DNA of 64,000 nucleotides, from the NCBI RefSeq assembly GCF_019357415.1, contig NZ_CP048410.1:3188501-3252500 (forward strand), given 5' to 3'. This DNA is from Gramella sp. MT6 (GTDB lineage: Bacteria > Bacteroidota > Bacteroidia > Flavobacteriales > Flavobacteriaceae). The number at the start of each line of letters is the position of its first letter. Position 1 is the first letter of the stretch. This document shows, piece by piece, positions 8,973 to 26,951 of this stretch. A program made the translations under genes and the position numbers. Below the pieces are notes generated by a model that was not told the DNA's origin, made no database searches, and saw nothing but the letters and a program-made list of their open reading frames with translations.

Positions 8973-9550
8973 AAAAGCAAACTCAAACTTTGATTGTAGT
9001 AATGGCTATAGCGTTATTATTGCCTGCACGCGCTGCGTGCCAGGGAATGCCCGTTTATGATAATACCAATTTTATCAGTCTGGTAAAATCCCTTGTAGAA
9101 TCAGCAAAACAGACAGCCAACCTGGTAAAGACGGTTAATTTTCTAAAAGCTCAAAAAGAGAATATAGAAAAGGTCAATAGTGTCATTCAGGATCTGAAGG
9201 CTGTTCGGGAGATCGGACGAAATAATCAGCGATTGATCAGCGTCATGCAGAATGACCTTCGAGACATTCTGGATTCTCCGTATATCGAACCCGATGAAGT
9301 AACCAGGGTCACAGAATCCTTTGATGCCGTGGTGGAAAACTCCCTGGCAACCATGGATTTTATCGATGAGATCTTATCCAGTGACCATTTAAAAATGAGT
9401 GATGCAGAGCGGGCCGAGGTATTAAAACAAAAAGAACTGGAAAGCCAGGAAATGGTGAATGATGTGCGCTTGAAAACCAGGCGTTACCAGGAGATCATAT
9501 CATTTCGGAAGATGCAGGACAGGATCAATAACCGGGAAACTGCTTTTTAA
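8969..9550 (+). CDS. traI: TraI-like exported T4SS protein (DUF4141, VirB5-like)
   Basis: A 193-residue protein with a clear signal peptide (hydrophobic residues 9-20, then CQG near 25-27) and an almost wholly helical, charged mature part rich in Lys, Glu and Gln, typical of VirB5-like periplasmic proteins. It lies between traG and a VirB6-like gene, the place of TraI (DUF4141) in Bacteroidota elements. The start overlaps traG by four bases, and its TAA stop shares one base with the ATG of traJ. A predicted role is assembly of the pilus or transfer channel. Confidence 0.75.
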   Translation: MKKQTQTLIVVMAIALLLPARAACQGMPVYDNTNFISLVKSLVESAKQTANLVKTVNFLKAQKENIEKVNSVIQDLKAVREIGRNNQRLISVMQNDLRDILDSPYIEPDEVTRVTESFDAVVENSLATMDFIDEILSSDHLKMSDAERAEVLKQKELESQEMVNDVRLKTRRYQEIISFRKMQDRINNRETAF

Positions 9551-10395: not shown

Positions 10396-10462
10396 AACCT
10401 TTGCCAGTTATGGAAAAGATAGATCAGAATAAGCAGATGTATAAACACTAAACACAAAAACT

Positions 10463-11077
10463 ATGAAAACTCCTTATAAAGATATTTATACCGTCTTAAA
10501 ACTCAACCGATTTATTGTATTAGCAATTGTTATAAGCGCACAAATATTTAGTGCTTTTGCCCTCTGGGTCACCTTCACAACGAATAAAAAAGCGTTGAAC
10601 TCTACTTTTGCCATTAACAATGACGGGAGTATTATTCCTTTAAAACTAGTCACCCAAAAAGAAAATTTTCAGGTGGAAGCATTAGCACATTTAGACCTGT
10701 TCCACACTTACTTCTACAACATTCACGCCACCAATTATGAGAAAAACCTTGAAAAGGCATTATGGTTGGGTAATGGTTCTGTTGCCGATCTATATCGCCA
10801 GAAAAAAGCCGAAGGTGTTTATAATCGTCTGCTTCAATATTCATTGGTACAAAAGGTCATCAGTATCGAATCGGACATCGAAGAAATGGATGATCATTAT
10901 AGGTTTAGAACAACTACCGTTTTTGAAATCAACCGAGGCTCTATTGTAGACACTTATGAACTTATTTCCACGGGAAAACTTATAACGGTAGACCGGCATT
11001 TTCCAAATAATCCTCATGGCCTCCTGATTACGGATTACTTTGAAAACAGTCTGAGAAAAATCGTTCCTGAATCTTAA
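10463..11077 (+). CDS. traK: TraK, VirB8-like conjugation protein
   Basis: A 204-residue bitopic protein: short cytoplasmic N-terminus, one transmembrane helix (about 18-38) and a periplasmic domain containing the FHTYFYNIHATNYEKNLEKAL segment typical of TraK in Bacteroidota elements. TraK is the VirB8 counterpart that links the inner-membrane platform to the outer complex. It follows traJ after 67 bases and precedes traM by eight. Its gene, traM and traN form the core-complex part of the operon. Confidence 0.88.
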   Translation: MKTPYKDIYTVLKLNRFIVLAIVISAQIFSAFALWVTFTTNKKALNSTFAINNDGSIIPLKLVTQKENFQVEALAHLDLFHTYFYNIHATNYEKNLEKALWLGNGSVADLYRQKKAEGVYNRLLQYSLVQKVISIESDIEEMDDHYRFRTTTVFEINRGSIVDTYELISTGKLITVDRHFPNNPHGLLITDYFENSLRKIVPES

Positions 11078-11085
11078 AACATATT

Positions 11086-12018
11086 ATGATGAAAATAGAA
11101 AAGAATAAGATCGTGGTTGGGAGTATCATCGCTATCACCATCATTTTTTTGATCTCTTATACGATCATGATCACAGGTGATGATCAAGATGAGGACAAGA
11201 ACCTAAAACAAACAACGGTTCCAGAGCTGCAGGAAGATCCACCTTCCTATGATTCGAAACTGGATGCCATCAACGATTTAAAAGAGGTAAGGGAGACCAA
11301 TGTCCCCAGTATTTATGATGAAAAACTGATGGATTCTCTGGGTTATTACGATGCAGAACTTCCCGAAAAGGAAAAACAGCACATCATCGATAGTATATAT
11401 TTTTTGGGAGAAAGAAGGTATGCGGAAGTAAGTGCGGTGGCTGCCCGGTCTAAAAAATCAATTCCCAGGAAAATTCAAAGGACAGATACTTCAGCAATTC
11501 GGGAGGAAGTGAAGATCCAGGCTAAAGAGATGGGACTGGAGCACCAGCTTTTCTTTGCATCCAATCCTAAATCAAACAACATTGCTGCTTCTGAAACTAC
11601 CGATTCGGAAATTTTAGCTGTAGTCGATGGTACCCAGGTAGTCAGGTCTAATTCCCGGCTCCGTTTACGGCTGGAACAGGATGCGATTATTGGCAATAAG
11701 CCGGTCCCAAAGAATACCCCCATTTTTGGTTTTGTAAGTTTTCGGCCTAACCGGGTGCTTATCGAAATAGAGAATTTAAAACATCAACCAACCGCATTAA
11801 AAGCTTTTGATCTACAGGATGGAAGTGAAGGTATTTATGTGGAAAATAATTTTCGTGAGGAAGCCACTACCGAAGTCCTGGATGATCTTTTAGGAGAGAT
11901 CAATATTCCCAGTGTGCCACAGGTAAGTGGTATAGGCAAGCTCTTAAAAACCAAAAATCGTAATGTAAAAGTTACGGTCCTGAATAACTATAAACTCATA
12001 TTAAAACCAGGCTTATAA
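11086..12018 (+). CDS. traM: TraM, VirB10-like core-complex protein
   Basis: The 310-residue product has one transmembrane helix (about 12-30), an acidic, disordered segment (35-160) and a C-terminal domain (about 190-310). The latter has the GTQVVRSNSRLRLRL and IGNKPVPKNTPIFGFV signature of Bacteroidota TraM. It spans the periplasm and corresponds to VirB10, transducing energy between the membranes. Here it is shorter than the 400-450 residues common in gut Bacteroides elements. The gene lies directly after traK. Confidence 0.85.
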   Translation: MMKIEKNKIVVGSIIAITIIFLISYTIMITGDDQDEDKNLKQTTVPELQEDPPSYDSKLDAINDLKEVRETNVPSIYDEKLMDSLGYYDAELPEKEKQHIIDSIYFLGERRYAEVSAVAARSKKSIPRKIQRTDTSAIREEVKIQAKEMGLEHQLFFASNPKSNNIAASETTDSEILAVVDGTQVVRSNSRLRLRLEQDAIIGNKPVPKNTPIFGFVSFRPNRVLIEIENLKHQPTALKAFDLQDGSEGIYVENNFREEATTEVLDDLLGEINIPSVPQVSGIGKLLKTKNRNVKVTVLNNYKLILKPGL

Positions 12019-12046
12019 ATTTCTGGTATAATTTAAACTCTTGGTC

Positions 12047-12880
12047 ATGAAAACATATCTTCTTATTTCCGCGATCCTTTTAACAGGCATCCAACTTTAT
12101 TCTCAAAAGGCAGAACGCTTGGACACGATTTTTGCCAATGAACACAAAAACGTGGCCTTATTTTTTCCGCAGCCTATCAGCCAGGGTATTACAGGTGCCA
12201 GCCATTTTGTTTTCACCCATAACAGGGAAAGACAACAATATTTCGGCTTATTACAGGCTAAACCAGGGACTGAGAGTAATCTTCTGGTAATAGATGCTGG
12301 AGGTTCGGTGTACTCTTATATCCTTAAGTATAGGAAGGACCTCTCCAGATTAAACTATTTTATCCAGGGTACAGAACGTATAGGCACTGAAAAGCGTGAT
12401 CTGCCAGCCCCTTTTAAGGATATAGAACCAAAACCAAACCAGCTCGACAGAGAAACCCATTATCGAAATTTTTGTTTCTATCTACTGAATAAAAAGGAAC
12501 GGATTGGTAGGGTAAAGAAAAGAAACCAGGGCATCATATTAAGTGTTGAAAATATAGTTTTTAACCAGAACGAACTGTATTTTGTAATTCAGATTGAAAA
12601 CCAATCCAGCCTGGATTATGATGTCAATTTTCTAAATCTGTCTGTGACTACCAGGCAAAAGGGAAAGAAAAAATCGATGCAATCACTTAAAAAAGACCCT
12701 GTATTCGCCTATAAAGCTCCTACGAAAATTAAAAAAGGTCACACTGCTCGATTGGTGTATGTATTTCCTAAGTTTTCTCTGAGTAACGACCGGCAGGTAT
12801 TACTGGAGCTCAACGAAGGAAAGGGTGAAAGGGATGTGGTATTAAAAATTTCTCATCGATTTATAAATAATCCTAATTGA
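12047..12880 (+). CDS. traN: TraN, VirB9-like core-complex protein (DUF4138)
   Basis: The 277-residue protein starts at the ATG 12047; a TTG six bases earlier is possible but adds only two residues. It has a signal peptide (residues 1-18, ending LYSQ) and the DTIFANEHKNVALFFPQPI and NRERQQYFGLLQA segments characteristic of TraN/DUF4138. TraN is the periplasmic/outer-membrane VirB9 counterpart. It is the last tra gene recognised; TraO, TraP and TraQ are absent here. The next gene is convergent, with an imperfect inverted repeat at about 12894-12917 between them. Confidence 0.85.
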   Translation: MKTYLLISAILLTGIQLYSQKAERLDTIFANEHKNVALFFPQPISQGITGASHFVFTHNRERQQYFGLLQAKPGTESNLLVIDAGGSVYSYILKYRKDLSRLNYFIQGTERIGTEKRDLPAPFKDIEPKPNQLDRETHYRNFCFYLLNKKERIGRVKKRNQGIILSVENIVFNQNELYFVIQIENQSSLDYDVNFLNLSVTTRQKGKKKSMQSLKKDPVFAYKAPTKIKKGHTARLVYVFPKFSLSNDRQVLLELNEGKGERDVVLKISHRFINNPN

Positions 12881-12910
12881 AAACCAACTGACTATCCGAA
12901 ATCAGGATTT

Positions 12911-13888
12911 TCAGATAGACCACTTTATATCTTTTAGTCTGGATCCGATATTCATCAAAGATTGCAATACTTCTTTTTCGTCTGGTAGTTCTCCGGTTAG
13001 TAATTCCCTAAATTGACCATTATAAGTTGGGCTTAAACTTTCCCAAACCTTCTCGGTATTTTTAAAAAACAAGGATTCTAACGGGTGTTTGGACAACCAT
13101 TCTTTATCTGTGGGAATAGCTTTATCATCATCTTTCCCTACCTGCAAAAGCATTACTTCAAAATCATCTGATTTTAGGAATAACGAAATTTTATACTCCT
13201 GCAGTAACTGGTGTAAATCGTAGGTATGTCGGATCTTATTTTTTAAATCCTCTAAAGGATTCTCCGTATATGAAAATCTTACCAGGCTAATGATTTTTTC
13301 GCAAAAGGTTCGTTCGATGCTTATTGCCGTTAAATTAAAAGGTTCAAGTTGATATTCTTTTATAAGGTCCTGATTGTTTGTGGTCGCAATAAACTGTGTG
13401 ATCATTGAGTGCACGCTGACTTTTTGCGACGGGTAAGATCTGCCTAAGCTGGAAACTTCCAAAACAATCTGGTCCCGAACCTGCCCATATATACCTTTTA
13501 CCCCTACTTTATCATAACCGTACACCAACTTTCTAATCTTGCCTTTTTTATTTTCCAGGGGGTGATCAGGAACAAGCTTCATTTCTGATTCCAACACACT
13601 GGTGACCTTCTTAAGTTTTCTTTTTATAGAGTTATCTGTTTCTCCATTTTCTTTTATGACAACGAGATCAATATCCTCGGAAAACCGTTGAATGATACCA
13701 TAGCATTTAGATAGCGAAGTTCCTCCCTTGAAAACGGCAATATCTTTGGAGTTGGGATCCGTAAAGATAATTTTAAGGGCAAAGGTCACCCAATAATCTT
13801 TTTCTACATAGATTTCAGAAATTCCGAAATGGTGGGCAGTGGCCACGATGGCACCTTCAAAAGCGGCTTTATAGTGATGTAATTTCAT
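12911..13888 (-). CDS. abiEii: AbiEii-type nucleotidyltransferase toxin
   Basis: The 325-residue product has the nucleotidyltransferase motif I GGTSLSK (residues 55-61) followed by S-E-D-I-D-L with D72 and D74. A later basic motif (FCEKIISLVRF) is also typical of the AbiEii/AbiGii family. AbiEii toxins are GTP-preferring or CTP-type nucleotidyltransferases; some add nucleotides to tRNA acceptor ends and cause growth arrest on phage infection. The gene shares one base with the stop of the antitoxin gene upstream, so they form an operon read antitoxin first. It sits between the tra and mob modules of the element. Family assignment is strong; the biochemical target here is unknown. Confidence 0.9.
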   Translation of the reverse strand: MKLHHYKAAFEGAIVATAHHFGISEIYVEKDYWVTFALKIIFTDPNSKDIAVFKGGTSLSKCYGIIQRFSEDIDLVVIKENGETDNSIKRKLKKVTSVLESEMKLVPDHPLENKKGKIRKLVYGYDKVGVKGIYGQVRDQIVLEVSSLGRSYPSQKVSVHSMITQFIATTNNQDLIKEYQLEPFNLTAISIERTFCEKIISLVRFSYTENPLEDLKNKIRHTYDLHQLLQEYKISLFLKSDDFEVMLLQVGKDDDKAIPTDKEWLSKHPLESLFFKNTEKVWESLSPTYNGQFRELLTGELPDEKEVLQSLMNIGSRLKDIKWSI

Positions 13889-14610
13889 TAAGAAATATTC
13901 CAGTTTGAGATTGTAGGTAAGATGCTTTTGGATAAGCCAAATTTATAAGTACTCAGATAATTGATACTGCCTTTAAGTGATGTACTGAAGGAATTTAAAG
14001 AAAGAGCTTCAAGGATGGCACCTAACAGTGCTCTCACTTTTGGAGGATATGCTTTGGCAATAGCAATCAGATTATTTTTCTCTACATCAGTAAGCTCCTG
14101 AATTTTTTTTCTTAAAAAGGTGATTCCCCTTTTTTTATCCATATCCGGAATATTTTTAAAATCTTTTATAACGTCTAATAATTGAAGTAACGATACATTG
14201 TTTTCTTCAACGGGCACATACGCTTTTGCAGGTTTAATGACAAGATTACCTATTTTGGCTTTGATCTCTTTGTTACCTGCTACCCTTACCACATTCGATA
14301 TTTGAGTAGTCAATCCCAGTTCATTATATAGTCGCAATCCGGTAACGTATGCAATCTGTTTGTCCTTTTCAAAGAGATACAAGTCAAGTAATGTGGTTTC
14401 TCTGGGCTTTAATTCCCCAAAAGCAGTTTGTTTAGGTCTGTAATATACCCCATTTTTATATCTCCTGATTACATTATCCTCCACTAATCGGCTTAATGCC
14501 TTTGCAGCAGCCAGGAATTCATTTGGAGGAATTCCAAGGGTATCATAGGTAAAAACCTCTCCTGAATCTAACTTATTAATTTTACTTTTAATGGATGCTG
14601 CAATATTCAT
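13888..14610 (-). CDS. abiEi: AbiEi-type antitoxin/regulator (DUF6088)
   Basis: A 240-residue protein with an N-terminal winged-helix domain (about 1-65, GEVFTYDTLG and RLVEDNVIRRYKNGVYY). A C-terminal antitoxin region contains LYNELGLTTQISNVV and PPKVRALLGAILEAL. This is the DUF6088 cognate of AbiEii toxins. AbiE is a type IV toxin-antitoxin system: the antitoxin does not bind the toxin directly and also represses its own promoter through inverted repeats. A promoter and an inverted repeat lie just upstream. Gene overlap with the toxin is one base. Confidence 0.85.
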   Translation of the reverse strand: MNIAASIKSKINKLDSGEVFTYDTLGIPPNEFLAAAKALSRLVEDNVIRRYKNGVYYRPKQTAFGELKPRETTLLDLYLFEKDKQIAYVTGLRLYNELGLTTQISNVVRVAGNKEIKAKIGNLVIKPAKAYVPVEENNVSLLQLLDVIKDFKNIPDMDKKRGITFLRKKIQELTDVEKNNLIAIAKAYPPKVRALLGAILEALSLNSFSTSLKGSINYLSTYKFGLSKSILPTISNWNIS

Positions 14611-14617
14611 AGTACCG

Positions 14618-14671
14618 CAAAGATAATCTTAAAACTGAATTAGGTCAAGTTTTTTCTGGTTTTTACTTGAC
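14618..14671 (-). promoter_or_regulatory. abiE promoter with inverted repeat
   Basis: On the minus strand TATCTTTG (14618-14625) forms the -7 box and TTG (14646-14648) the -33 box, separated by 20 bases. The inverted repeat GTCAAG (14644-14649) and CTTGAC (14666-14671), 16 bases apart, overlaps the -33 box. AbiEi proteins repress their own operon via inverted repeats, so this is a good operator candidate. Confidence 0.65.
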
Positions 14672-14691
14672 AAAGTATAATATTATTGTAA

Positions 14692-16272
14692 TTATTTAAA
14701 AATTGATTTAGCTTCCTGATAAATTCTTTCAAAATTCATTTCCAAATCGGTTGAAGAGAACTCTTTAGCTGCTCCAGGAAGCTCCCTTAAAATCCTTTGT
14801 AATTTAAACTGTACTTTTTTATCCTTCCCATCAGCATAGGTAATGAACTCACCCTGTTTCAATCGAAAAAAAGCATCTGCTCTAATTTTCGGAATTTCAT
14901 TTTCCCCGGTAATCACTCGTGTATCGAAATTCAGATTATGGCCACTACTCACACTCTTAGTAGGATCCTTTATAATCTCGAAGAAACGTTCATAATATTT
15001 AGCGGTGTCAGGATCATTAACCTTCCCAAAGAACTGGTAAGACAGATTGCTTAGTATAGCTTTACTGGCCTTATCTCCGTACATCATGTCATTCTGGATC
15101 TTATCCTGCATCACATATATCGTGGCAATATCATAACTTCTCAAAGTAGCCGGAATGCGGTGCATATTCAGTAAGCGTAAGGTAGGTGCTTCTTCCATCA
15201 ATAGAAATGACGGATTGGAATTACGTACACTCATTTGTTTGGTAATGGTATGGATGATGGCTGCAATTACCGCAGAATAGGAAGATTCAAATTTAGGGTT
15301 ATTCACAACGGAAATTACTGCGGGGTTTTCGGGATTATTTATATTTAAAGGAACGTCATCTGCAGACAGGGCCATAAATATACTTTGGGTACTGATCCGT
15401 TTTAGGGCATTAGCCAGGGTACTCTTTACCCCTGCAGTCTGTCTTTCTGAATCTTTACCGCTAATAAAGGCATCTGCCATCGCCCTGGAGGTCCTGTTCG
15501 AATCCAGGAAAGCTATAAGGCTCTCTGTGTCCAGAAACTGATATATTGCGATTAAATGGGGCAATGAACAATATTGTGGATAGGATGTTTTCAATTTCCA
15601 GATCATCCCTCCTATTAAACCTTCTGCAGCATCATTAAAGAATTTTGTGGTTCCGCTTGTGCCTGACTCCTTCTGTTCTAATAGATTCTCAATGAGAACT
15701 CTGGAAATTTCATTGACGCTCTCTTCATTTTCCAGATAGCGGGGTGCAATCGGATTGACCCGGTGGATAATCTTATCAAAGGAAATGATCTTAAAAGGAA
15801 TATCTGAATCCTTAAAAAGCGGATAAGCCATTTCGGTAAGTTCAAAATCCTTATAATCATGGATTACTCCACAAAAAGTGTATTGCTGAAAATGCTTTAG
15901 AAAACCATAGACCACACTTTCCGTTTTTCCACTACCGGCAGAACCGATGACGGATGCCCCGCGTTTGATATTAGCAATCTTAAAATCTTTACTACTGGTT
16001 TTAAAATTTACCTGATACTTCCTCGCAACCTTATCCTTTATTTCAGTGGAATGACAGAAAACATAGAAAACCGTATTGATTAATAACAAGGGGCTACCCA
16101 CATACAATAGGCCTTCTATAATCAGCTGGGGATAAAAGCAGTAAAGAATAAATCCTATTAGCAAAAGTGAATTGATCAAAAATGCATATCTGGAAATACG
16201 GTATAAACCGTAGAAAAGCAGACTACAAAAAATGACGATTATGGTGGTATTTACAATGTTGAATTCTTCCAT
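14692..16272 (-). CDS. mobC: Type IV coupling protein (VirD4/TraG family), MobC of Bacteroidota
   Basis: The 526-residue protein has two N-terminal transmembrane segments (about 10-28 and 33-70), a Walker A motif GSAGSGKTES at 110-119, and a Walker B of the form FLLMEEAPTL at about 350. This is the coupling ATPase that brings the relaxase-DNA complex to the T4SS. It follows the relaxase gene after 19 bases in the order mobA-like, mobB, mobC. It is somewhat shorter than the 600-670 residues of gut Bacteroides MobC, with a compact C-terminus. The AbiE operon promoter begins just beyond its stop. Confidence 0.88.
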   Translation of the reverse strand: MEEFNIVNTTIIVIFCSLLFYGLYRISRYAFLINSLLLIGFILYCFYPQLIIEGLLYVGSPLLLINTVFYVFCHSTEIKDKVARKYQVNFKTSSKDFKIANIKRGASVIGSAGSGKTESVVYGFLKHFQQYTFCGVIHDYKDFELTEMAYPLFKDSDIPFKIISFDKIIHRVNPIAPRYLENEESVNEISRVLIENLLEQKESGTSGTTKFFNDAAEGLIGGMIWKLKTSYPQYCSLPHLIAIYQFLDTESLIAFLDSNRTSRAMADAFISGKDSERQTAGVKSTLANALKRISTQSIFMALSADDVPLNINNPENPAVISVVNNPKFESSYSAVIAAIIHTITKQMSVRNSNPSFLLMEEAPTLRLLNMHRIPATLRSYDIATIYVMQDKIQNDMMYGDKASKAILSNLSYQFFGKVNDPDTAKYYERFFEIIKDPTKSVSSGHNLNFDTRVITGENEIPKIRADAFFRLKQGEFITYADGKDKKVQFKLQRILRELPGAAKEFSSTDLEMNFERIYQEAKSIFK

Positions 16273-16291
16273 ATCATTTATATTATTTCAT

Positions 16292-17323
16292 TTAAATTCC
16301 GATAGAGCTTGATTTAACTGCTATATCCACTCCCCTTCTCAACCGGTTAAGAACTTTTAAAGCCAACTGGGCTTTATTGGTTGGGATGTTTGGCATCATA
16401 GGCATTCCGGTTTCTTTTAGCATTTTCATGGCAATTGCTTTTTCACTGGTTGGCAGTTTCATCAAATTTGAAAAATAACTTCTAGGGTTTTTAATGAACT
16501 CTTTCCTGGCAGTATAGGTTTCCACAAAATTTCGTTGATATCCGAAGTTCTTATCGAATGTTTTTTCAGCTTTTCCAAAGAATTTATCACGATCAAAACC
16601 CCGTTTGACTGTTTTCCCATTCAACTCAACCTTCGATGCTTTGTATTTGCTACCGGGAGATAAGCTATACTTATTCGAAGCATCCCTGCGGCTCACTATA
16701 ATATGGATATGGCTTTGGTTCCCTTCTTTGGGCATTCCCTGTACAATTCGTTGCCCCTCTTGTTTATGGGGAGCTGCTTTTTCCAGTTTATTGATCTCCC
16801 GTTTCATCTGAGCAATATTCCCAGGTTGTTCTCCGCGCTCCACTTTTTGGATATCATTTTTTAGTTGAAGTATTTTGGTAGCAAAGGGCTGATTTTCCCG
16901 TACCTGTGTATCGGTGCCTTTAAAAAATCGTTGATGTTCAATTTTGGCGTAGTATTTTATATCATCAATATTGACCGGTCGGCCATTGAGTTCACGATTA
17001 AAAGAAGCCACATAATCTTTCATCACTGCACGAGTATATTTTTTTAGATCTTCGCTGTTGTTTTTCAACCTGTTCAACTCGTATTTTGAAGGGCTTATCG
17101 TAATAGAATAAAACCTTGGTTCCGTTTTTTCCAGTTTAGCGGTATTGGCATCAATTTCCCGGACTACTTCCTCCGCTGAAACTTGGTCCCCATATTGATT
17201 AAAGAAGTATTCCCTATCCTGCGAATCCAGTCCCTGGTTTTCCTTTTCCAGGTAGTCCACAAAGTCGGCTGAACCCTGAGAATAATTCCCTCCTAATTTT
17301 TGTGCTGTGATGGTGATATACAT
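16292..17323 (-). CDS. mobB: MobB relaxase (DUF5712 family)
   Basis: A 343-residue protein beginning MYITITAQKLG with an HIHIIVS motif placing metal-binding histidines at 205 and 207, the His-hydrophobe-His core of HUH relaxases. Candidate nicking tyrosines lie near Y40 and Y44 (REYFFNQYGD). It matches the Bacteroidota MobB relaxase group (DUF5712), which nicks one strand at oriT and stays covalently bound to the transferred DNA. A coiled segment (about 150-190) and a basic C-terminus follow. It is cotranscribed with the small protein upstream and the coupling protein downstream. Confidence 0.85.
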   Translation of the reverse strand: MYITITAQKLGGNYSQGSADFVDYLEKENQGLDSQDREYFFNQYGDQVSAEEVVREIDANTAKLEKTEPRFYSITISPSKYELNRLKNNSEDLKKYTRAVMKDYVASFNRELNGRPVNIDDIKYYAKIEHQRFFKGTDTQVRENQPFATKILQLKNDIQKVERGEQPGNIAQMKREINKLEKAAPHKQEGQRIVQGMPKEGNQSHIHIIVSRRDASNKYSLSPGSKYKASKVELNGKTVKRGFDRDKFFGKAEKTFDKNFGYQRNFVETYTARKEFIKNPRSYFSNLMKLPTSEKAIAMKMLKETGMPMMPNIPTNKAQLALKVLNRLRRGVDIAVKSSSIGI

Positions 17324-17333
17324 CTTTAATAAT

Positions 17334-17723
17334 TTATGAGTCTTGTTGATTTCGTTCTTGATATTTGGGTTGTTTTTCTTCCGTATTTTTCTTCTCCAGG
17401 ATCAGGGGTTGTTTTTTAGGTTCAGCTTCCTGGAACAAAGATTGCATCATGGCTACCGTTGGTTTGGTTTGTCCTTTCTCAATATCTTTTAAGATAGCGA
17501 TGACTCCATTGATCCTTTTCTTGATCAGGTTTTCCAGGGTTTGCATTTTAGGGCCCATAGATTCCGTTGGAGAAATTCCATTATCCTCAAAAAACTCCAG
17601 CATTAAAAGCAAGGTCATGGATTTTGACATAGAAAGTTTTTTGCAATAGCTGTTGAATTTCTTTGCAACGGAAGCCTTCAGACTTATGCTCTTAAACCGT
17701 TCATATTCATATCCTTTATCCAT
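17334..17723 (-). CDS. BfmA/BtgA-type mobilisation accessory protein
   Basis: The 129-residue product has an N-terminal half with KSISLKASVAKKFNSYCKKLSMSKSMTLLLML, typical of BfmA/BtgA relaxosome proteins of Bacteroidota, and a charged Lys/Glu/Gln-rich tail (about 95-129). Such proteins bind oriT and help the relaxase. It is the first gene of the mob operon and lies next to the candidate oriT. A repeated quasi-palindrome touches its start codon, so it or the relaxase may control its own transcription. Confidence 0.72.
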   Translation of the reverse strand: MDKGYEYERFKSISLKASVAKKFNSYCKKLSMSKSMTLLLMLEFFEDNGISPTESMGPKMQTLENLIKKRINGVIAILKDIEKGQTKPTVAMMQSLFQEAEPKKQPLILEKKNTEEKQPKYQERNQQDS

Positions 17724-19806: not shown

Positions 19807-19848
19807 TATTTAAGTATTTGCTTAAATACGTATTTTATTATACCTTTG
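19807..19848 (+). promoter_or_regulatory. mer-type operon promoter with palindromic operator
   Basis: TTG (19818-19820), a 20-base spacer and TACCTTTG (19841-19848) form a good Bacteroidota promoter. The perfect inverted repeat TATTTAAG (19807-19814) and CTTAAATA (19821-19828), six bases apart, covers the -33 box. A dyad at this place suits repression by the ArsR-type regulator encoded 22 bases downstream of the -7 box. Confidence 0.75.
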
Positions 19849-19870: not shown

Positions 19871-20236
19871 ATGGAAATTACTTGTACAAGAGCCCAAGCT
19901 GATCATCAACAACTTCTCAATTGTAAAAATGTTCTTGAAAGAATGGATGATAATTTTCAGGATATGACCAAACTGTTATCGATTGCTGGTAGTGAGGTAC
20001 GTTTAAAAATTTTATTCCTTTTGAACATGGAAGACGAATTGTGCCCTTGTGATATTGCTGATATTTTAGAAATGAGTGTACCTGCAATATCCCAACACAT
20101 CCGTAAAATTAAAGATGCAGGTTTTATCTCCTCCAGAAGAGATGGGCAAACATTGTATTATTCATTAGTGAAGGATAAAACAGCTGTACTTAATACTATT
20201 TTCACTACTATCAAAATGGTTAAAAAAACTGCCTAA
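19871..20236 (+). CDS. ArsR/SmtB-family metal-responsive repressor
   Basis: The 121-residue winged-helix protein has the motif ELCPCDIADIL with Cys58 and Cys60 in the recognition-helix region, the same place as the metalloid/metal-sensing Cys pair of ArsR. Further cysteines are at 5 and 18. It should repress its own operon until a thiophilic metal binds. The next gene, merTP-like, begins one base after its stop, making this the regulator of a mercury-type operon; Bacteroidota commonly use an ArsR-type rather than MerR-type protein there. Metal specificity (Hg, As, Cd) cannot be fixed from sequence. Confidence 0.85.
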   Translation: MEITCTRAQADHQQLLNCKNVLERMDDNFQDMTKLLSIAGSEVRLKILFLLNMEDELCPCDIADILEMSVPAISQHIRKIKDAGFISSRRDGQTLYYSLVKDKTAVLNTIFTTIKMVKKTA

Positions 20237-20237
20237 A

Positions 20238-20861
20238 ATGAAAACTTCCAAAAAATCAAACAGTCCGGCATATTTGAGCATAGTTACTGCGATAACTGCT
20301 TCCGTATGTTGTATTACTCCCCTTTTGGCAATTTTAGCAGGTAGTAGTGGACTTGTCACCACATTTTCCTGGATAGAACCTTTTCGTCCCTATTTGGTTG
20401 CACTTACTATAGGAATTCTTGGTTTGGCCTGGTATTTAAAATTGAAACCTAAAACACAAGAAGAAATAGATTGTGCCTGTGACAAAGAAGCAAAACCATC
20501 TTTTTGGCAGTCCAAAAATTTTCTATTCATAGTTACAGCATTTGCCGGATTGATGCTGACTTTCCCTTATTATTCCAATATATTTTATGCACAGCCCAGC
20601 AAGGATATAGTGTATGTTTCTCAATCAAACATAATAAAGCACACCTTTGAAGTTGAGGGAATGACCTGCGCAGGCTGTGAAGCCCATGTAGAAAGCGAGG
20701 TGAACAAACTAGATGGCATTTTATCCGTAAAAGCGAGTTACAAAAATTCTAATACTGTGGTGGAATATGATAAAACTAAAGTTGATTTGGTCGTAATTCG
20801 AGAAGCAATAAATAAAACTGGTTATAAAGTAATCGATACAGAAAATAAAGAAGAGAAGTAG
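20238..20861 (+). CDS. merTP: MerT-MerP fusion (MerTP) mercuric ion transporter
   Basis: The 207-residue protein has a first transmembrane helix with vicinal Cys24-Cys25 (SVCCITPLLAILAGSSG) as in MerT, and a second helix at about 52-68. A CAC motif (Cys79, Cys81) lies in the loop, a third helix spans about 93-112, and a C-terminal HMA domain has GMTCAGC (Cys144, Cys147) as in MerP. Fusion of MerT and MerP is typical in Bacteroidota. It brings Hg(II) into the cytoplasm by passing it between Cys pairs for detoxification. It is translated with the regulator and the reductase (one base or less between genes). Confidence 0.88.
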   Translation: MKTSKKSNSPAYLSIVTAITASVCCITPLLAILAGSSGLVTTFSWIEPFRPYLVALTIGILGLAWYLKLKPKTQEEIDCACDKEAKPSFWQSKNFLFIVTAFAGLMLTFPYYSNIFYAQPSKDIVYVSQSNIIKHTFEVEGMTCAGCEAHVESEVNKLDGILSVKASYKNSNTVVEYDKTKVDLVVIREAINKTGYKVIDTENKEEK

Positions 20862-22208
20862 ATGAAAAAATATGATGTATTTGTAATAGGTTCCGGGATG
20901 TCGGGTATGACCGTTGCTAATAAATGTGCCTCCAAAGGCCTTAAGGTGGGCATTACCGATGAACTTCCCTACGGTGGAACCTGTGCCCTAAGAGGCTGTG
21001 ATCCTAAAAAGGTGATTATAGGAGCAACTGAAGTACGTGATTTTGCGCAAAGGCTTAAAGGAAATGGAATAGATACCGTACCAGAAGTCAATTGGGAAGA
21101 TATTATGGCTTTTAAGCAATCTTTTGTGGATGCCATGCCTCCTAAAATTGAAAAAGGATATAAGAATAAGAACATAGACACTTATCACACTTCAGCTAAA
21201 TTTGTATCTGATAACACCTTACAGGTAGGAGATGAAGTTATTGAAGCTGATAAATTCGTAATCGCAACAGGAGCAAAACCCCGGGTACTGGGTTTTGAAG
21301 GTGGAAATTTGGCCCTTTCAAGTACAGATTTCCTTAACCTGAAAAAGCTACCTGAATCACTTTTATTTATTGGAGGTGGCTACATTGCCTTTGAATTTGC
21401 CCATATCGCTGCGCGGGCCGGTGCCGATGTAACCATATTACATAGTGGAGAATTTCCTTTGGAAAACTTTGATCGTGACATTGTACAACATCTTGTGGAG
21501 GCAACCCAAAACCTGGGCATTAAATTGGTTTTGAAAACCGAAGTTTCTAAAATTAAAAAGAAAGAAGACCATTATGTAGTAGTAGGAAAATCAAATGGAA
21601 AAGAGGTCAATTATAAGACTGACTCTGTCTTTAACTCGGCCGGTCGTCCTCCCGCCATATTTGATTTAGATTTGGAAAAAGCAGGGATATCTTTTTCAAA
21701 AAAAGGAATCACGGTCAACGATTACCTCCAAAGCACCTCTAATCCTAATATTTATGCAGCGGGAGATTCAGCAGATTCTAAAAGCTTGCCCCTTACCCCT
21801 GTTGCGGTGATGGAAGGGCATATCGTGGCATCAAACATCATCAAAGGGAACAAGAAAAAAGTTAATTATCCACCAATGCCTTCCGTAGTTTTTACTTTAC
21901 CTACCCTGGCATCAGTAGGATTAACCGAAGCAGAAGCCAAATCAAAACAGATAGAATATCAGGTCAATTATAACCATGCGGAAAGCTGGTTCAATGCAAA
22001 AAGACTGAATGTTAAAGAATATGCTTATAAAACGATTATTGATAAAGAGAATCAGACTATTCTTGGGGCACATTTAATAGGTCCTAACACAGAGGAAACC
22101 ATCAATTTATTCGCCATGGCGATAAAAACCAAAATGAAAATCAATGAGTTAAGGACGATGATCTTTACGTATCCAACTTTGTCATCGGATATTCCTCATA
22201 TGCTCTAA
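20862..22208 (+). CDS. MerA-like FAD/NAD(P) disulfide reductase lacking the C-terminal Cys pair
   Basis: The 448-residue flavoprotein has an N-terminal FAD box (VIGSGMSG, residues 8-15), a redox-active pair Cys41 and Cys46 in GGTCALRGCDPKK, a NAD(P) box (FIGGGYIAFEFA) and the GD motif IYAAGDSAD. It belongs to the glutathione reductase/MerA class. True MerA ends in vicinal cysteines that deliver Hg(II) to the active site; this protein ends SSDIPHML and has none. It also lacks an N-terminal HMA domain. Its place after merTP argues for mercuric or related metal reduction, perhaps with a partner that supplies the thiols. A general disulfide reductase is the alternative. Confidence 0.75.
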   Translation: MKKYDVFVIGSGMSGMTVANKCASKGLKVGITDELPYGGTCALRGCDPKKVIIGATEVRDFAQRLKGNGIDTVPEVNWEDIMAFKQSFVDAMPPKIEKGYKNKNIDTYHTSAKFVSDNTLQVGDEVIEADKFVIATGAKPRVLGFEGGNLALSSTDFLNLKKLPESLLFIGGGYIAFEFAHIAARAGADVTILHSGEFPLENFDRDIVQHLVEATQNLGIKLVLKTEVSKIKKKEDHYVVVGKSNGKEVNYKTDSVFNSAGRPPAIFDLDLEKAGISFSKKGITVNDYLQSTSNPNIYAAGDSADSKSLPLTPVAVMEGHIVASNIIKGNKKKVNYPPMPSVVFTLPTLASVGLTEAEAKSKQIEYQVNYNHAESWFNAKRLNVKEYAYKTIIDKENQTILGAHLIGPNTEETINLFAMAIKTKMKINELRTMIFTYPTLSSDIPHML

Positions 22209-22224
22209 ACAAAAATAATAGATT

Positions 22225-22431
22225 ATGAAAATACAGCTAGTATCTACCATTACGTGTCCTGATTGCGGACATACGAAAGAAGAAGAAATGCCTACAACCG
22301 CCTGTCAGTTTTTTTACCAATGTGAAAATTGCAGTCAATTATTGAAACCAAAGGAAGGTGATTGCTGCGTTTATTGTTCTTATGGTACTGTTGCCTGTCC
22401 ACCCATTCAGGAAGGAACAAATTGCTGCTAA
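22225..22431 (+). CDS. GDCCVxC-domain small Cys-rich protein (copy 1)
   Basis: A 68-residue protein with 11 cysteines: CPDC at 11-14, Cys27, CENC at 33-36, GDCCVYC at 46-51, Cys58 and a terminal Cys67-Cys68. It matches the GDCCVxC (seleno)protein family, in which the last Cys of the motif is selenocysteine in some bacteria; here the codons are ordinary Cys. Paired CxxC motifs suggest a zinc-ribbon-like fold. It follows the MerA-like gene by 16 bases. The C-terminal vicinal pair resembles the metal-delivery tail missing from that reductase. Function is unknown. A second copy lies at 35305-35511. Confidence 0.8.
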   Translation: MKIQLVSTITCPDCGHTKEEEMPTTACQFFYQCENCSQLLKPKEGDCCVYCSYGTVACPPIQEGTNCC

Positions 22432-22446
22432 AAACTTAAAATACTT

Positions 22447-22479
22447 TTGGTGACCTCCCCCACTCCAGATGTATCTTGC
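22447..22479 (+). promoter_or_regulatory. C-rich-spacer promoter A (own promoter of the CsoR/RcnR-type regulator)
   Basis: TTG at 22447-22449, a 22-base spacer and TATCTTGC at 22472-22479. The spacer contains ACCTCCC at its positions 4-10, in otherwise AT-rich DNA. The same layout occurs at 22931, 23389 and 23957. C/G-run operators are typical of RcnR/FrmR/CsoR proteins, and the regulator gene starts 14 bases downstream. Confidence 0.7.
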
Positions 22480-22493
22480 TGAAAATTAAAAGT

Positions 22494-22868
22494 ATGATTC
22501 CTAGAGATCTAAGTAAAGATATAAAAACCCGCTTGCAGAGCATCAGCGGCCAGCTTAACGGGCTTATAAAAATGCTGGATGAAAATAAAGATCCAGAAAA
22601 GATCCTGATCCAGTTCAAAGCTGCGCAAAAAGGACTGGATAAGGCGCATTTTCTTCTTTTAGATGAAGTGTACCGCAAAGCTCTGGCGATCACAATTTCA
22701 GAAACGGTGGAAGCCTGTCCCGGTAATTGCGGTAATGAAGAGCGAATTGAATTCATAAGAAAACAATTCCCTGATCTTGAGCTTAACAGCCTTACCGATA
22801 AAATGAAGGAGGTTGATGAACTTAAACGAAGACTAGAATCTTATATTTCTGAAAATAGACCAGAGTAA
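22494..22868 (+). CDS. CsoR/RcnR-fold (DUF156) transcriptional regulator with non-standard ligands
   Basis: The ATG at 22494 gives 124 residues; a TTG at 22476 would overlap the -7 box and is rejected. The all-helical DUF156 core is visible (RLQSISGQLNGLIKML, FKAAQKGLDKAHFLLLDEVYRKAL). The usual CsoR ligands are missing: the Cys at the start of helix 2 is Pro34, the LLxxH histidine is Glu58, and the later Cys is Lys62 or nearby. Instead there is a CPGNC pair at 75-79 and a 40-residue charged C-terminal extension. It should repress the four C-rich-spacer promoters in this region. Its inducer may be a metal or a thiol/persulfide signal. Confidence 0.8.
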   Translation: MIPRDLSKDIKTRLQSISGQLNGLIKMLDENKDPEKILIQFKAAQKGLDKAHFLLLDEVYRKALAITISETVEACPGNCGNEERIEFIRKQFPDLELNSLTDKMKEVDELKRRLESYISENRPE

Positions 22869-22903
22869 AATATTCTTCTATTTAATTTAATACTATTTAA
22901 AAT

Positions 22904-22928
22904 CTGTTTTACAAAAGCAGGTTTTTTT
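22904..22928 (+). terminator. Terminator after the DUF156 regulator
   Basis: CTGTTTT (22904-22910) pairs imperfectly with AAAAGCAG (22913-22920), followed by seven T (22922-22928). The T-run directly abuts the next promoter's -33 box at 22931. Confidence 0.5.
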
Positions 22929-22930
22929 AT

Positions 22931-22963
22931 TTGGAGACCACCCTGGTTCCGCTCTTATCTTTG
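22931..22963 (+). promoter_or_regulatory. C-rich-spacer promoter B (thioredoxin-like gene)
   Basis: TTG at 22931-22933, a 22-base spacer and a perfect -7 box TATCTTTG at 22956-22963. The spacer carries ACCACCC at its positions 4-10, then GG and TTCCG. Promoter D shares ACCACCC and TTCCG at the same positions. Confidence 0.75.
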
Positions 22964-23016
22964 AACTGTTCTTTGAAAATAAGGATAAAACTGATTGTTA
23001 AATTAAATTCATATAA

Positions 23017-23286
23017 ATGAAAAGACAAGTAGAAATATTTACGGCAAATTGTCCGGTATGCGATCCGGTAGTGAAAATGGTAAAAGAATTATCCTGCGAT
23101 AGTTGCGAAATTACCACCTATAATATGGTGGACCAATGTGATGATAAATCTTGTTTAACCAAGATGCAGGAATATGGAGTTAAAAGAATCCCCTCGGTGG
23201 CAGTTGATGGTAAATTGCTTGAATGCTGTACAAACAATGAGATCAGTAAAGAAAAGCTTATCGAAGCAGGAATAGGAAAAGCTTAA
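23017..23286 (+). CDS. Thioredoxin-fold small protein with CPVC motif
   Basis: The 89-residue protein resembles a minimal thioredoxin/glutaredoxin: first strand, an active-site C12-P-V-C15, and a cis-Pro region RIPSVAVDGK. Extra cysteines at 27, 30, 41, 46, 70 and 71 give an unusually Cys-rich molecule for this fold (10 Cys in 89 residues). No signal peptide is seen, so it is cytoplasmic. It could reduce thiols or carry a soft metal between proteins of the neighbouring Cys-rich set. It has its own C-rich-spacer promoter and terminator. Confidence 0.75.
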   Translation: MKRQVEIFTANCPVCDPVVKMVKELSCDSCEITTYNMVDQCDDKSCLTKMQEYGVKRIPSVAVDGKLLECCTNNEISKEKLIEAGIGKA

Positions 23287-23321
23287 TAAATATTCCATAC
23301 TTAAAAAACCTGATAATTTAT

Positions 23322-23347
23322 GGCAGCCAAAAATGGTTGCCTTTTTT
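23322..23347 (+). terminator. Terminator after the thioredoxin-like gene
   Basis: GGCAGCC (23322-23328) pairs with GGTTGCC (23335-23341) through one G-U wobble, with a six-base loop and six T after it. Confidence 0.8.
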
Positions 23348-23388
23348 GTTTGTAATCCAATTAAGATGTTAAATTTTTATTAATCAGC

Positions 23389-23421
23389 TTGCCTCCCCCC
23401 CAGGCTATGACCCGATCTTTG
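23389..23421 (+). promoter_or_regulatory. C-rich-spacer promoter C (four-helix Cys protein)
   Basis: TTG at 23389-23391, a 22-base spacer and GATCTTTG at 23414-23421 (one base off TATCTTTG). Spacer positions 4-10 are all C (seven in a row), the block equivalent to ACCACCC in promoters B and D. Confidence 0.65.
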
Positions 23422-23496
23422 AATAGAGGTTCGGCTCTTAATCCTTTATTTCTGATTTTCGAACAGATCAGGAAGTAACTAAAACCATTTTAAATT

Positions 23497-23823
23497 ATGA
23501 AACCATTAAGTTCAGAAATGCAAAAATGTATTGATGATTGCAACGCCTGTATCACGGCAGCCAGGATCTGCCTGGATCAACACCTGGGGGAACCCGACAT
23601 GAAAGAATGCCACAAATTTTGTCTGGATTGTATTGCATTATGCACAGCCTGTGTTCAACTACTTGCAAGCCAGTCTGATTATTCAAAACGCCTATGTGCT
23701 ATTTGTGCGGACTTATGTAAGGCCTGTGCGGATGAATGTGCAAAGTTTGACAGTGAAGTTTGCCAGCAATGCGCAGAAAAATGTCGAACCTGTGCCGAAA
23801 GCTGTAAAGAAATGGCAGCTTAA
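23497..23823 (+). CDS. Four-helix-bundle Cys-rich copper-storage-like protein
   Basis: A 108-residue protein with 19 cysteines arranged as CxxxC and CxxC repeats along four predicted helices (IDDCNACITAARIC, KFCLDCIALCTAC, AICADLCKACADEC, CQQCAEKCRTCAESC). This is the pattern of DUF326/Csp-like four-helix bundle copper-binding proteins, whose bundle core is lined with thiols that bind many Cu(I) ions. No signal peptide is present, so it should store or buffer a thiophilic metal in the cytosol. It is controlled by promoter C. Whether copper or another soft metal is bound is not shown by sequence. Confidence 0.85.
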   Translation: MKPLSSEMQKCIDDCNACITAARICLDQHLGEPDMKECHKFCLDCIALCTACVQLLASQSDYSKRLCAICADLCKACADECAKFDSEVCQQCAEKCRTCAESCKEMAA

Positions 23824-23844
23824 AAAAAATGTGAAATTTTTTTT

Positions 23845-23876
23845 AAAAGGAGCGGCTAAAAAGTTGCTCCTTTTTT
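23845..23876 (+). terminator. Terminator after the Cys-rich bundle gene
   Basis: AAAAGGAGC (23845-23853) and GCTCCTTTT (23866-23874) form a nine-base perfect stem with a 12-base loop, ending in six T. Confidence 0.85.
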
Positions 23877-23956
23877 ATAAATGGGATTATAAAGTAGGGA
23901 AAAATACTATCCAATCTCTCATCCACAACCACCTATAAAAAAAAGCCTCTAGAAGT

Positions 23957-23989
23957 TTGGATACCACCCGGGCTTCCGGGGTACATTTA
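23957..23989 (+). promoter_or_regulatory. C-rich-spacer promoter D (MerT-like/barrel/HMA operon)
   Basis: TTG at 23957-23959, a 22-base spacer and TACATTTA at 23982-23989. Spacer positions 4-10 are ACCACCC, followed by GGG, TTCCG and a G-run. It is the fourth copy of the arrangement within 1.6 kb. Confidence 0.65.
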
Positions 23990-24012: not shown

Positions 24013-24411
24013 ATGTTTGCCAAAATAAAAGAAGATTTTGTAAGTATAGGATCGCTATTCACCTCCGTTTCCACACTCTTATGTTGCGCGTTACCATCAT
24101 TATTGGTAGCTCTGGGAATGGGAGCTGTGGTGGCCGGCCTGGCTTCAGATATTCCCTGGTTGTTTAGCCTGAGCCGCTATAAAAACTGGACTTTTTTGAT
24201 TGCCGGGGTAATGATTGGCTTTAACTTTTGGCTTTTCTACGGAAGAAAACGGCAGCAGAGTTGTGAAATAGATGAAGACGGAAATGAAACGGCCTGTGAT
24301 ACAGCAGCTAAATGGAGCAAAGGGATCTTATGGTTTTCCTTTGTGTTATATCTTTTTGGACTTTTTGCAGCCTATTTACTTTTTCCCATTCAAAAATTTT
24401 TAGAATTATAA
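24013..24411 (+). CDS. MerT/MerC-like membrane protein with vicinal cysteines
   Basis: The ATG at 24013 gives 132 residues; an upstream TTG at 23995 is too near the promoter. The first transmembrane helix contains Cys24-Cys25 (STLLCCALPSLLVALGMG), the hallmark of MerT-type metal importers. Two or three further helices follow (about 55-72 and 105-125), separated by a cytoplasmic loop with SCEIDEDGNETAC. It lacks an HMA domain, but an exported HMA protein is encoded two genes downstream. It probably moves a thiophilic metal across the inner membrane. The barrel gene starts 10 bases after the stop. Confidence 0.75.
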   Translation: MFAKIKEDFVSIGSLFTSVSTLLCCALPSLLVALGMGAVVAGLASDIPWLFSLSRYKNWTFLIAGVMIGFNFWLFYGRKRQQSCEIDEDGNETACDTAAKWSKGILWFSFVLYLFGLFAAYLLFPIQKFLEL

Positions 24412-24421: not shown

Positions 24422-25261
24422 ATGAAAAAATATTTTTTGATCCTGGGTATAGGATTATTGACACTGTATCAAGTAAAAGCCCAGGGACATGGCCCTATTT
24501 ATGGTTTGCAGACGCCCACCCTGGCGAAAGGCGGTATAAACATGAACGCTGCCGGAATGAGCATAGCGACCGAAGACGAAGCCTCTTATATGCTTCGGTA
24601 TACATTTTTCTATGGCATTACGGAAGATTTACAGGTTACTTTTACCACTCCTACTGTGATTGAGCGTCTGGAAAATGCTCCACGAACGCGTGGAAATAGT
24701 ATGATGCCTTCCAATGGAGATATCGAGGCTGCTTTGTGGTATCGTTTTTTTTCAAATGCTTTTGGGGTAGGAAAGAGGTTTGAATCCACAGCAATTTTAG
24801 GGGTATCTGCCCCTACTGAGGATGTTCGCGGACAGGTAAATGTAGGGAACTCTATTCATGGCGCCATTTCTACGGGATATGCCTCACGTACGTGGTACGC
24901 CTGGTTAGGTGGCGGTTACCAATATTATTTTGAAAAGGACAACCAGCAATTAGGCGATTTACCCTATGCAAGCATGGTGATAGGTTATCGTCCCAATATC
25001 TTTATGGGGGATTACCCTAAACCTGACTGGCGGATATTTGTAGAATCATTGGCCGAATTTCCCGGAGATAATAAAGTTAACGGACAATTTTTTTCTACGG
25101 ATGAACGAAGTAAAAAAGTATTGGTTGGTCCTTCTATTTTAGGACTTGCCGGGCCCTGGGGAATTTCCTTCGGGGCATTGTTCCCGGTGGTTCAGGATCT
25201 AATACCGAATACGCCCCGTGAAAAGTACCGGGTATCATTGAACATAAGTTATTGGCTATAA
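24422..25261 (+). CDS. Outer-membrane beta-barrel protein of metal operon
   Basis: The 279-residue product has a signal peptide (1-21, ending VKAQ) and alternating amphipathic strands rich in aromatic residues, ending in a C-terminal aromatic/Leu pair (SLNISYWL). It resembles the transporter-type barrels of the MetA-pathway/phenol-degradation group often found beside metal-resistance genes, but no precise family is claimed. The initial segment GHGPIYGLQTPTLAKGG is common to such proteins. It is the middle gene of an operon with MerT-like and HMA proteins and may pass a metal or complex through the outer membrane. Confidence 0.65.
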   Translation: MKKYFLILGIGLLTLYQVKAQGHGPIYGLQTPTLAKGGINMNAAGMSIATEDEASYMLRYTFFYGITEDLQVTFTTPTVIERLENAPRTRGNSMMPSNGDIEAALWYRFFSNAFGVGKRFESTAILGVSAPTEDVRGQVNVGNSIHGAISTGYASRTWYAWLGGGYQYYFEKDNQQLGDLPYASMVIGYRPNIFMGDYPKPDWRIFVESLAEFPGDNKVNGQFFSTDERSKKVLVGPSILGLAGPWGISFGALFPVVQDLIPNTPREKYRVSLNISYWL

Positions 25262-25302: not shown

Positions 25303-25776
25303 ATGAAAAGAATAGCATTAATTATGGTAGTGGCAGTGTTTGGGACCATAAGTTCCGATGCCCAAATCACCAAAGTAGATCAGGAAGTTTTTGGAATGGA
25401 TTGTGCACCTTGTGCCTATGGCCTTGAACGCGGGCTTAAAAAAATGGATGGGCTGGAAAAGGTAAGGGTGAGTTTAAATGATGGTAAAGCTTATCTTGAA
25501 CTTTCGGAAAATAATAGTTTAAGTCTTAAACAAATCCAGGAGGAAGTCAAGAAAAATGGTTTTTCCGCCAAAAAAGCTGAAGTAGTCATAGAGGGAAAAT
25601 TAATTAAGAAGAATAATAATTTTCAACTCCATACTGAAACTGAAACTTACAGTCTTTCTGGCGATCTGGTATCAGAACTAAAACCTGGAAAGATGAAACT
25701 TAAAGGAATTGTTCAGGACGAGGAAGATGACGATTTACCCAGTCATTGGAAAATAAATATCATCTGGATTTTTTAG
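25303..25776 (+). CDS. Exported HMA-domain protein (MerP-like)
   Basis: A 157-residue protein with a signal peptide (1-20, ISSDAQ) and an HMA domain whose metal motif is GMDCAPC (Cys34, Cys37), followed by the usual second half up to about residue 95. A C-terminal extension (100-157) has an acidic EEDDDD-like patch and ends in hydrophobic residues. It should bind a soft metal in the periplasm and hand it to the MerT-like protein in the same operon. The start lies 41 bases after the barrel gene. No other catalytic motif is present. Confidence 0.8.
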   Translation: MKRIALIMVVAVFGTISSDAQITKVDQEVFGMDCAPCAYGLERGLKKMDGLEKVRVSLNDGKAYLELSENNSLSLKQIQEEVKKNGFSAKKAEVVIEGKLIKKNNNFQLHTETETYSLSGDLVSELKPGKMKLKGIVQDEEDDDLPSHWKINIIWIF

Positions 25777-26617: not shown

Positions 26618-26951
26618 TTAATCATTCAACCTTTGCTTCAAATTATCAATATCTGAGGATATTTTGGAATCAATTACCTGGGCATAAATCTGGGTAGTGG
26701 AAATTTTATGAGGTCCTAGCAACTTGGAAACTGTTTCTAAAGGTACGCCATTGGCCAAGGTTACTGTAGCACCAAAAGTATCTCTAGCAGTATGAAAGCC
26801 TAAATTTTTTCTGATTTTTACTTCTTTAGCGATTTCCTTGAAATAAATAGGCAAGCCCGGTATAACAAGCAAAACAAATATATACCCATTCAATTGCAAG
26901 CTTGGCTTTTTCAGTTCGTAGTTTAATTCTTGAGGGTTCCCAATTTTAGAA
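26618..26951 (-). pseudogene. Tyrosine recombinase (integrase), deleted and frameshifted remnant
   Basis: The last ~70 residues match the catalytic end of Bacteroidota integrases: NLGFHTARDTFGATVTLANGVP, then LLGPHKISTTQIYAQ with the nucleophilic Tyr. Upstream, a different frame encodes LRTEKAKLAIEWVYICFACYTGLAY, the region just before the second catalytic segment. About 100 residues between these parts are missing and the frames do not join, so the enzyme is dead. The normal LGH motif has also become LGPH. This marks the former end of a mobile element. Confidence 0.8.

Follow-up and report, generated by a model that had tools for sequence, protein, structure and literature searches.

A recurring C-rich promoter element linked to DUF156 regulator genes in metal-related gene clusters of Bacteroidota

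Most operators of the CsoR/RcnR family of transcriptional regulators are described as pseudo-palindromic sites with a G or C run of at least four residues, and the C/G-run-rich site of Mycobacterium tuberculosis CsoR overlaps the -10 and -35 promoter regions (PMC10318464). A stretch of 64,000 nucleotides (nt) of the Gramella sp. MT6 genome (contig NZ_CP048410.1, positions 3,188,501 to 3,252,500 of the forward strand; hereafter called the window) contains four promoters, designated A to D, which carry a C-rich block of seven bases (C-block) at the same position of a 22-nt spacer, and promoter A precedes a gene encoding a DUF156 protein of the family PF02583. A different mode of control is known from MerR-type switches, which act from within a long promoter spacer where the regulator, on binding metal, reshapes the DNA for the polymerase. 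Mer operons of Bacteroidetes are reported to carry ArsR, and CsoR or DUF156 are not mentioned in the main text of the study describing them (PMC3466566).

The window shares with the CsoR/RcnR/FrmR systems a regulator which matches PF02583 above the curated cut-off and a C-rich site inside the promoter, with a C run of at least four residues at some sites. In contrast to these systems, the C-block is placed at fixed distances from both promoter boxes, sites of the window type show no dyad signal (59 promoters), and the protein has lost the equivalents of Cys36, His61 and Cys65 while a CPG(N/D)C motif and further C-terminal helices were added. An operator outside the usual G/C-run type is permitted within the family, as documented for TTHA1953, although this protein recognises a TAC/GTA palindrome that lacks long G/C runs (PMC10318464) and not a one-sided C-block. 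As in MerR-type systems, the site lies between the promoter boxes at fixed spacing, in a spacer 2 nt longer than that of most ArsR promoters of the same clusters; unlike them, the regulator belongs to PF02583 and not to MerR, no dyad is present and activation is hypothetical here. An ArsR-led mer operon as known from Bacteroidetes is located directly upstream in the window, but operons of this kind show an AT-rich dyad, mostly a 20-nt spacer and no C-block. A constant C-rich spacer of 22 nt is unusual in comparison with the B. thetaiotaomicron promoters presented in PMC7366714. At the level of titles and opening parts of abstracts in the open-licence literature, no description of a C-block operator or of the DUF156 variant was found.

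Four promoters with a common layout

22447..22479 (+), promoter A, before the DUF156 gene: TTG 22447-22449, C-block ACCTCCC 22453-22459, -7 box TATCTTGC 22472-22479
22931..22963 (+), promoter B, before the thioredoxin-like gene: TTG 22931-22933, C-block ACCACCC 22937-22943, -7 box TATCTTTG 22956-22963
23389..23421 (+), promoter C, before the Csp-like gene: TTG 23389-23391, C-block CCCCCCC 23395-23401, -7 box GATCTTTG 23414-23421
23957..23989 (+), promoter D, before the MerT-like gene: TTG 23957-23959, C-block ACCACCC 23963-23969, -7 box TACATTTA 23982-23989

All four promoters are built of a TTG, 3 nt, the 7-nt C-block, 12 nt and a -7 octamer, which results in a spacer of 22 nt in 4/4 cases. 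A preceding sequence-only reading had placed the TTG starts at 22447, 22931, 23389 and 23957, each 22 nt from the octamer, and had given spacer positions 4-10 as ACCTCCC, ACCACCC, CCCCCCC and ACCACCC; re-reading of the coordinates confirmed every position and every letter. The pentamer TTCCG, which it described as common to promoters B and D, does occur in both, but it is offset by one base between them and most of the listed relatives lack it; it is therefore probably incidental. Promoter C is the most divergent and weakest site, with a block consisting of C only and a -7 box, GATCTTTG, in which GA replaces TA.

Within the window, the whole pattern TTGN4CCNCCCN13ANNTT matched exclusively the four promoters, whereas 100 dinucleotide shuffles gave a mean of 0.11 matches with a maximum of 1. 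The single-contig genome of 3.77 Mb contains five matches, namely promoters A to D and a site at 3587238 without any related gene nearby, compared to two for the reversed control. The front part TTGN4CCWCCC by itself is unspecific, with 27 genome matches versus 19 for the control. A stricter form, TTGNNNACCWCCCN12TANNTT, missed promoter C in the window even when up to two mismatches were allowed, and the three matches obtained at this tolerance were unremarkable versus a shuffle mean of 1.4. As the whole pattern was derived from the four promoters themselves, independent evidence has to come from its recurrence in other genomes.

Recurrence and specificity of the layout

A search with the DUF156 protein yielded 54 loci, of which one (L062) was dropped as it was no true relative. 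In the remaining 53 loci, a block was counted when it showed the 22-nt spacing and resembled ACCACCC in at least five of seven positions within 150 nt before the DUF156 gene. Such a block precedes the DUF156 gene in 39/53 loci; for the thioredoxin-like gene, 42 loci were testable and 40 of them have it, and 47/53 loci carry it before at least one of the two genes; many loci are close relatives and these counts do not represent independent events. Spacers of 17-21 and 23-27 nt occurred only 0-6 times each. The sequence-only reading had postulated a fixed promoter architecture common to the linked genes, and this proposal is borne out by the window as well as by the relatives.

The spacing was also determined without forcing it. 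Among 117 unique contexts of ACCWCCC, a TTG is located exactly 6 nt upstream in 52 and the -7 box at +19 in 48, with both present in 45, while for two control blocks (95 and 216 contexts) the top count at any single distance was 9. A profile of 60 non-redundant promoters, which is inflated where its own pattern fixed the boxes and the block, revealed that the 12 nt after the block are nearly uninformative apart from their C-richness.

Counterparts of promoter C with the blocks ACCCCCC or ATCCCCC and equal spacing were found in L009-L013 and L015, and a counterpart of promoter D at the same site in L012, L013 and L015. The layout extends over named records from genera of the Flavobacteriaceae to Hymenobacter plasmids, and the genes downstream of C-block promoters encode, among others, heavy-metal-associated (HMA), MerTP-like and outer-membrane-type proteins. 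When the search was started from the thioredoxin-like gene, this gene was detected in 17/397 genomes of the family, a DUF156 relative was adjacent in 17/17, and the 22-nt layout preceded the thioredoxin-like gene in 16/17, the remaining one (L128) being masked by N.

With these data, a resemblance of the four promoters by chance or by recent duplication of one promoter can practically be dismissed. Promoters A to D are indeed confined to 1.6 kb, with B similar to D; against such an origin stand the shuffle mean of 0.11 versus four matches and the divergence of the flanks and of the 12-nt part while block and boxes persist (these being partly fixed by the pattern, in contrast to the unforced count of 117 contexts). 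The recurrence from Flavobacteriaceae genera to Hymenobacter plasmids already contradicts it.

The strict pattern TTGNNNACCWCCCN12TANNTT proved to be specific, as the sequence-only reading had predicted: 36/38 DUF156-carrying genomes were positive with 63 matches, compared to 6 for the control, and by eye only three of these matches (G395:C90, G399:C64 and G404:C9:2695) are located away from the DUF156 genes found in the protein search. The two DUF156-carrying genomes without a strict match hold variants, a 21-nt spacer in L048 and the block AACACCC in L056. A hand count over a further 394 genomes of the phylum, taken without a DUF156 screen, gave 18 matches versus 20 for the control; at least two of these genomes (G029 and G103) carry an ACCCCCT variant which the strict pattern misses. 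None of the 18 matches is located before a DUF156 or thioredoxin-like gene as judged by eye, and many are internal to long open frames. On viral contigs, 12 of 13 stretches had no ATG frame of at least 50 codons within reach and one had an unrecognised frame of 73 amino acids (aa). A looser pattern applied to eight genomes yielded 15 matches compared to 6 for the control and added a candidate in the L058 genome, located before a gene of outer-membrane type. The specificity of the pattern suffices for the prediction of regulated genes where a genome carries DUF156, its strict form missing the block variants.

We conclude from these sequence comparisons that the C-block layout is a real, recurring and DUF156-linked promoter element, in which a known family of regulators presumably employs a novel variant of operator and sensor. 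Its occurrence at four neighbouring metal-handling genes, and again next to this regulator gene in related bacteria, suggests a common switch triggered by metal.

The DUF156 protein and other candidate ligands of the C-block

22494..22868 (+), DUF156 (Trns_repr_metal, PF02583) regulator gene, 124 aa; PF02583 51.4 bits (cut-off 22.8), residues 8-68

The encoded protein is the sole PF02583 match found in the genome, and PF02583 is the sole Pfam family assigned to it at E <= 0.001. The NCBIfam models RicR and RcnR match it under their cut-offs, and two PDB sequences, 4m1p (a CsoR) and 5fmn (InrS), were retrieved at E <= 0.001. The CsoR ligand fingerprint Cys36/His61/Cys65 (PMC4235346) marks known metal sensors rather than Pfam membership. 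Alignments of the DUF156 relatives revealed Pro at the position of Cys36, Val, Thr, Ala or Ser at that of His61 and Ala, Thr, Ser or Met at that of Cys65, hence neither Cys nor His at any of the three. Instead, CPG(N/D)C, with the form CPGNC in the window, is invariant in an alignment of 18 members and in another one of 13 members which includes Hymenobacter and Adhaeribacter; the sequences of L059-L061 are cut or broken before this motif completes. An AlphaFold2 model of the protein is all-helical with helices 7-29, 34-73, 81-91 and 97-120 (mean predicted local distance difference test score (pLDDT) 83, predicted template modelling score (pTM) 0.58) and places CPG(N/D)C in the turn that follows the long helix 2. 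We infer that the cysteines of this motif form the sensor site. At E <= 1e-10, the DUF156 relatives comprise 1662 protein clusters, in which other DUF156 kinds may be included; for these, both a DNA target and a new sensor site would become accessible to testing. At L121:1852, a DUF156 relative of 193 aa is encoded 3' of the thioredoxin-like gene, and its extra C-terminal part resembles an HMA domain by eye.

The C-block is quite probably the operator of the DUF156 protein, with release by a soft metal derepressing the four units together. Metal-free DUF156 protein would sit on the block, which keeps constant distances of 3 nt from the -33 TTG and 12 nt from the -7 box, and would prevent access of RNA polymerase. 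A soft, thiol-reactive metal, with Hg(II) or Cu(I) as first guesses, would bind the conserved CPG(N/D)C cysteines and cause the protein to leave the DNA, whereupon DUF156, the thioredoxin-like gene, the Csp-like metal store and the set of MerT-like, outer-membrane and HMA genes would be switched on jointly. The sequence-only reading had likewise named the DUF156 protein as the obvious ligand. This proposal gains from the adjacency of both genes in all 17 thioredoxin-first genomes and from the site in the regulator's own promoter in 39/53 loci. Its comparison with RcnR/FrmR/CsoR proteins needs to be corrected for the missing dyad and the absent CsoR ligand residues.

The letters of the block vary between groups of regulators. 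In most, the block is ACCACCC. Ten loci carry the block ACCCCCT with a -7 box CATCTTTG, and their DUF156 proteins are 58-62% identical. GACACCC or GATACCC was found on three Hymenobacter plasmids (L157-L159) with DUF156 proteins of about 52% identity (four of six plasmid matches examined), and AACACCC in L056; in L056, L158 and L159 both sites of the locus are identical in every letter. On the Hymenobacter plasmids, the 22-nt layout precedes genes for DUF156 and glutaredoxin proteins which adjoin annotated genes of heavy-metal efflux, and the sensed metal may therefore differ by lineage. In L056 (4475-4943), one AACACCC promoter precedes the DUF156 gene and a second one directly precedes a MerTP-like gene, with no ArsR detected in the stretch; mercury uptake has possibly been rewired to DUF156 at this locus.

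Several observations weigh against the DUF156 protein as the ligand of the C-block. A block with 22-nt spacing is absent from the 150 nt before the DUF156 gene in 14/53 loci, and in 6/53 it precedes neither this nor the thioredoxin-like gene. The loci of the ACCCCCT group show no block within 90 nt ahead of the DUF156 gene, hence autoregulation is not general. The four sites of the window do not all share the same block letters, nor do the two sites of L157, and the regulator of L049 and L050, whose first half is like that of the ACCCCCT group, adjoins an ACCACCC promoter. Around the block, no dyad beyond chance was detected in 59 promoters when dyads built on the block were sought; an inverted arm of 6/7 positions after the block occurs in only 2/59, the thioredoxin promoters L030:6429 and L119:1430. 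Finally, the regulator and the promoters, being neighbours, could have been co-inherited without any contact. The DUF156 gene at L049:3412 and L050:6001 looks like a natural recombinant, its second half and the thioredoxin promoter resembling the ACCACCC group; in the L050 genome no further DUF156 match was found at E <= 1e-5.

The missing dyad and the variable letters of the block would also be expected if it were part of an alternative-sigma promoter or the site of an unlinked regulator, with DUF156 as a mere passenger, and the rigid distance to both boxes would suit a polymerase-contacting factor. We regard this explanation as improbable: the -33 and -7 boxes are of the ordinary TTG/TANNTTTG type at most sites, the matches are concentrated in genomes with DUF156 and do not exceed the control in the others, and the type of block differs between DUF156 groups.

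A further candidate ligand is the ArsR protein which heads the mer operon at 19871, in which case the whole cluster would form one ArsR regulon.

19807..19848 (+), promoter of the ArsR-led mer operon, for contrast: dyad TATTTAAG-N6-CTTAAATA 19807-19828, 20-nt spacer, -7 box TACCTTTG 19841-19848, no C-block
19871..22431 (+), genes for ArsR, a MerTP fusion, a MerA-like oxidoreductase (under the curated MerA cut-off) and a GDCCVxC protein

An ArsR relative is present in 43/54 loci, and ArsR is the regulator reported for mer operons of Bacteroidetes (PMC3466566). The AT-rich dyad at 19807-19828 overlaps the -33 box of the operon and recurs across clusters as a candidate ArsR-type operator. In a set of 31 ArsR promoters (the window and 30 relatives), the best inverted repeat is of the TTTAA...TTAAA kind in 28/31, two of them with one mismatch, while L046, L048 and L051 differ; a C-block was found in 0/31 (30 by pattern, the window by reading). 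The spacer, readable in 26/31 promoters, measures 20 nt in 11/16 unique spacers. Moreover, L037, L053, L054 and L056 carry C-block promoters without a relative of the window ArsR in the examined stretch as judged by tblastn, although an ArsR may lie further off. As ArsR apparently has an operator of its own, it is very unlikely to bind the C-block, and by its promoter the upstream mer operon falls outside the regulon proposed in the sequence-only reading.

The spacing is rigid at 22 nt to either side of the block, compared to 20 nt for the majority of ArsR promoters in these clusters. Such rigidity is not needed for a plain blocker, and DUF156 might instead behave like MerR, staying on the overlong spacer while the metal causes it to reshape the DNA for the polymerase, as an activator or a dual switch. 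Such a role seems unlikely to us. Described members of the CsoR/RcnR family are repressors (PMC4235346, PMC10318464), and a genome survey of TTTG-N-TANNTTTG with 197+163 matches versus 163+157 for the control gave no clear spacer optimum among the matches listed (100 of 360). A histogram of intergenic spacers was discarded as a guide to the usual spacer length as its counts were too small. Hardly less doubtful is the wider proposal of a Bacteroidota branch of CsoR/RcnR proteins in which the classic ligands have given way to a CPG(N/D)C sensor where helix 2 ends, a one-sided C-block lies in the overlong 22-nt spacer and the promoter is held and remodelled in a MerR-like manner. The rigid 22-nt spacing, if functional, would raise the question how a CsoR-type protein communicates with the unusual Bacteroidota promoter.

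The gene cluster and its surroundings

22899..22925 (+), terminator-like hairpin followed by a T-run, 3' of the DUF156 gene; z -4.4, absent from the simple terminator scan
23017..23286 (+), thioredoxin-like protein (CPVC, Thioredoxin_3), 89 aa; 26.9 bits, cut-off 24.8
23322..23341 (+), terminator-like hairpin followed by a T-run, 3' of the thioredoxin-like gene; z -3.0, also in the simple scan
23497..23823 (+), Csp1-like cysteine-rich four-helix copper-storage-like protein, 108 aa; TIGR04401, E 5e-12, 46.2 bits, under the curated cut-off of 100
23845..23874 (+), terminator-like hairpin followed by a T-run, 3' of the Csp-like gene; z -5.2, absent from the simple scan
24013..24411 (+), MerT-like membrane protein, 132 aa; family matches under curated cut-offs
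24422..25261 (+), 279-aa putative secreted or outer-membrane protein without a family match
25303..25776 (+), HMA domain protein, 157 aa; PF00403 38.1 bits, cut-off 24.8

The genes of the 279-aa protein and of the HMA protein probably ride on the MerT-like transcript. The simple terminator scan showed no excess over shuffles (4 versus a mean of 5.8) and named only 23322..23341 of the three hairpins. The cluster reads as a series of tandem promoter-gene-terminator cassettes, an organisation which would explain why each unit has a C-block site of its own.

Genes resembling conjugative transfer and relaxase genes, as judged by eye without a family search, adjoin the metal cluster at 6501-17723, and the cluster may therefore be carried on a conjugative element. 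On its far side, at 26618-26899 (-), an open frame resembles by eye a fragment of a tyrosine recombinase.

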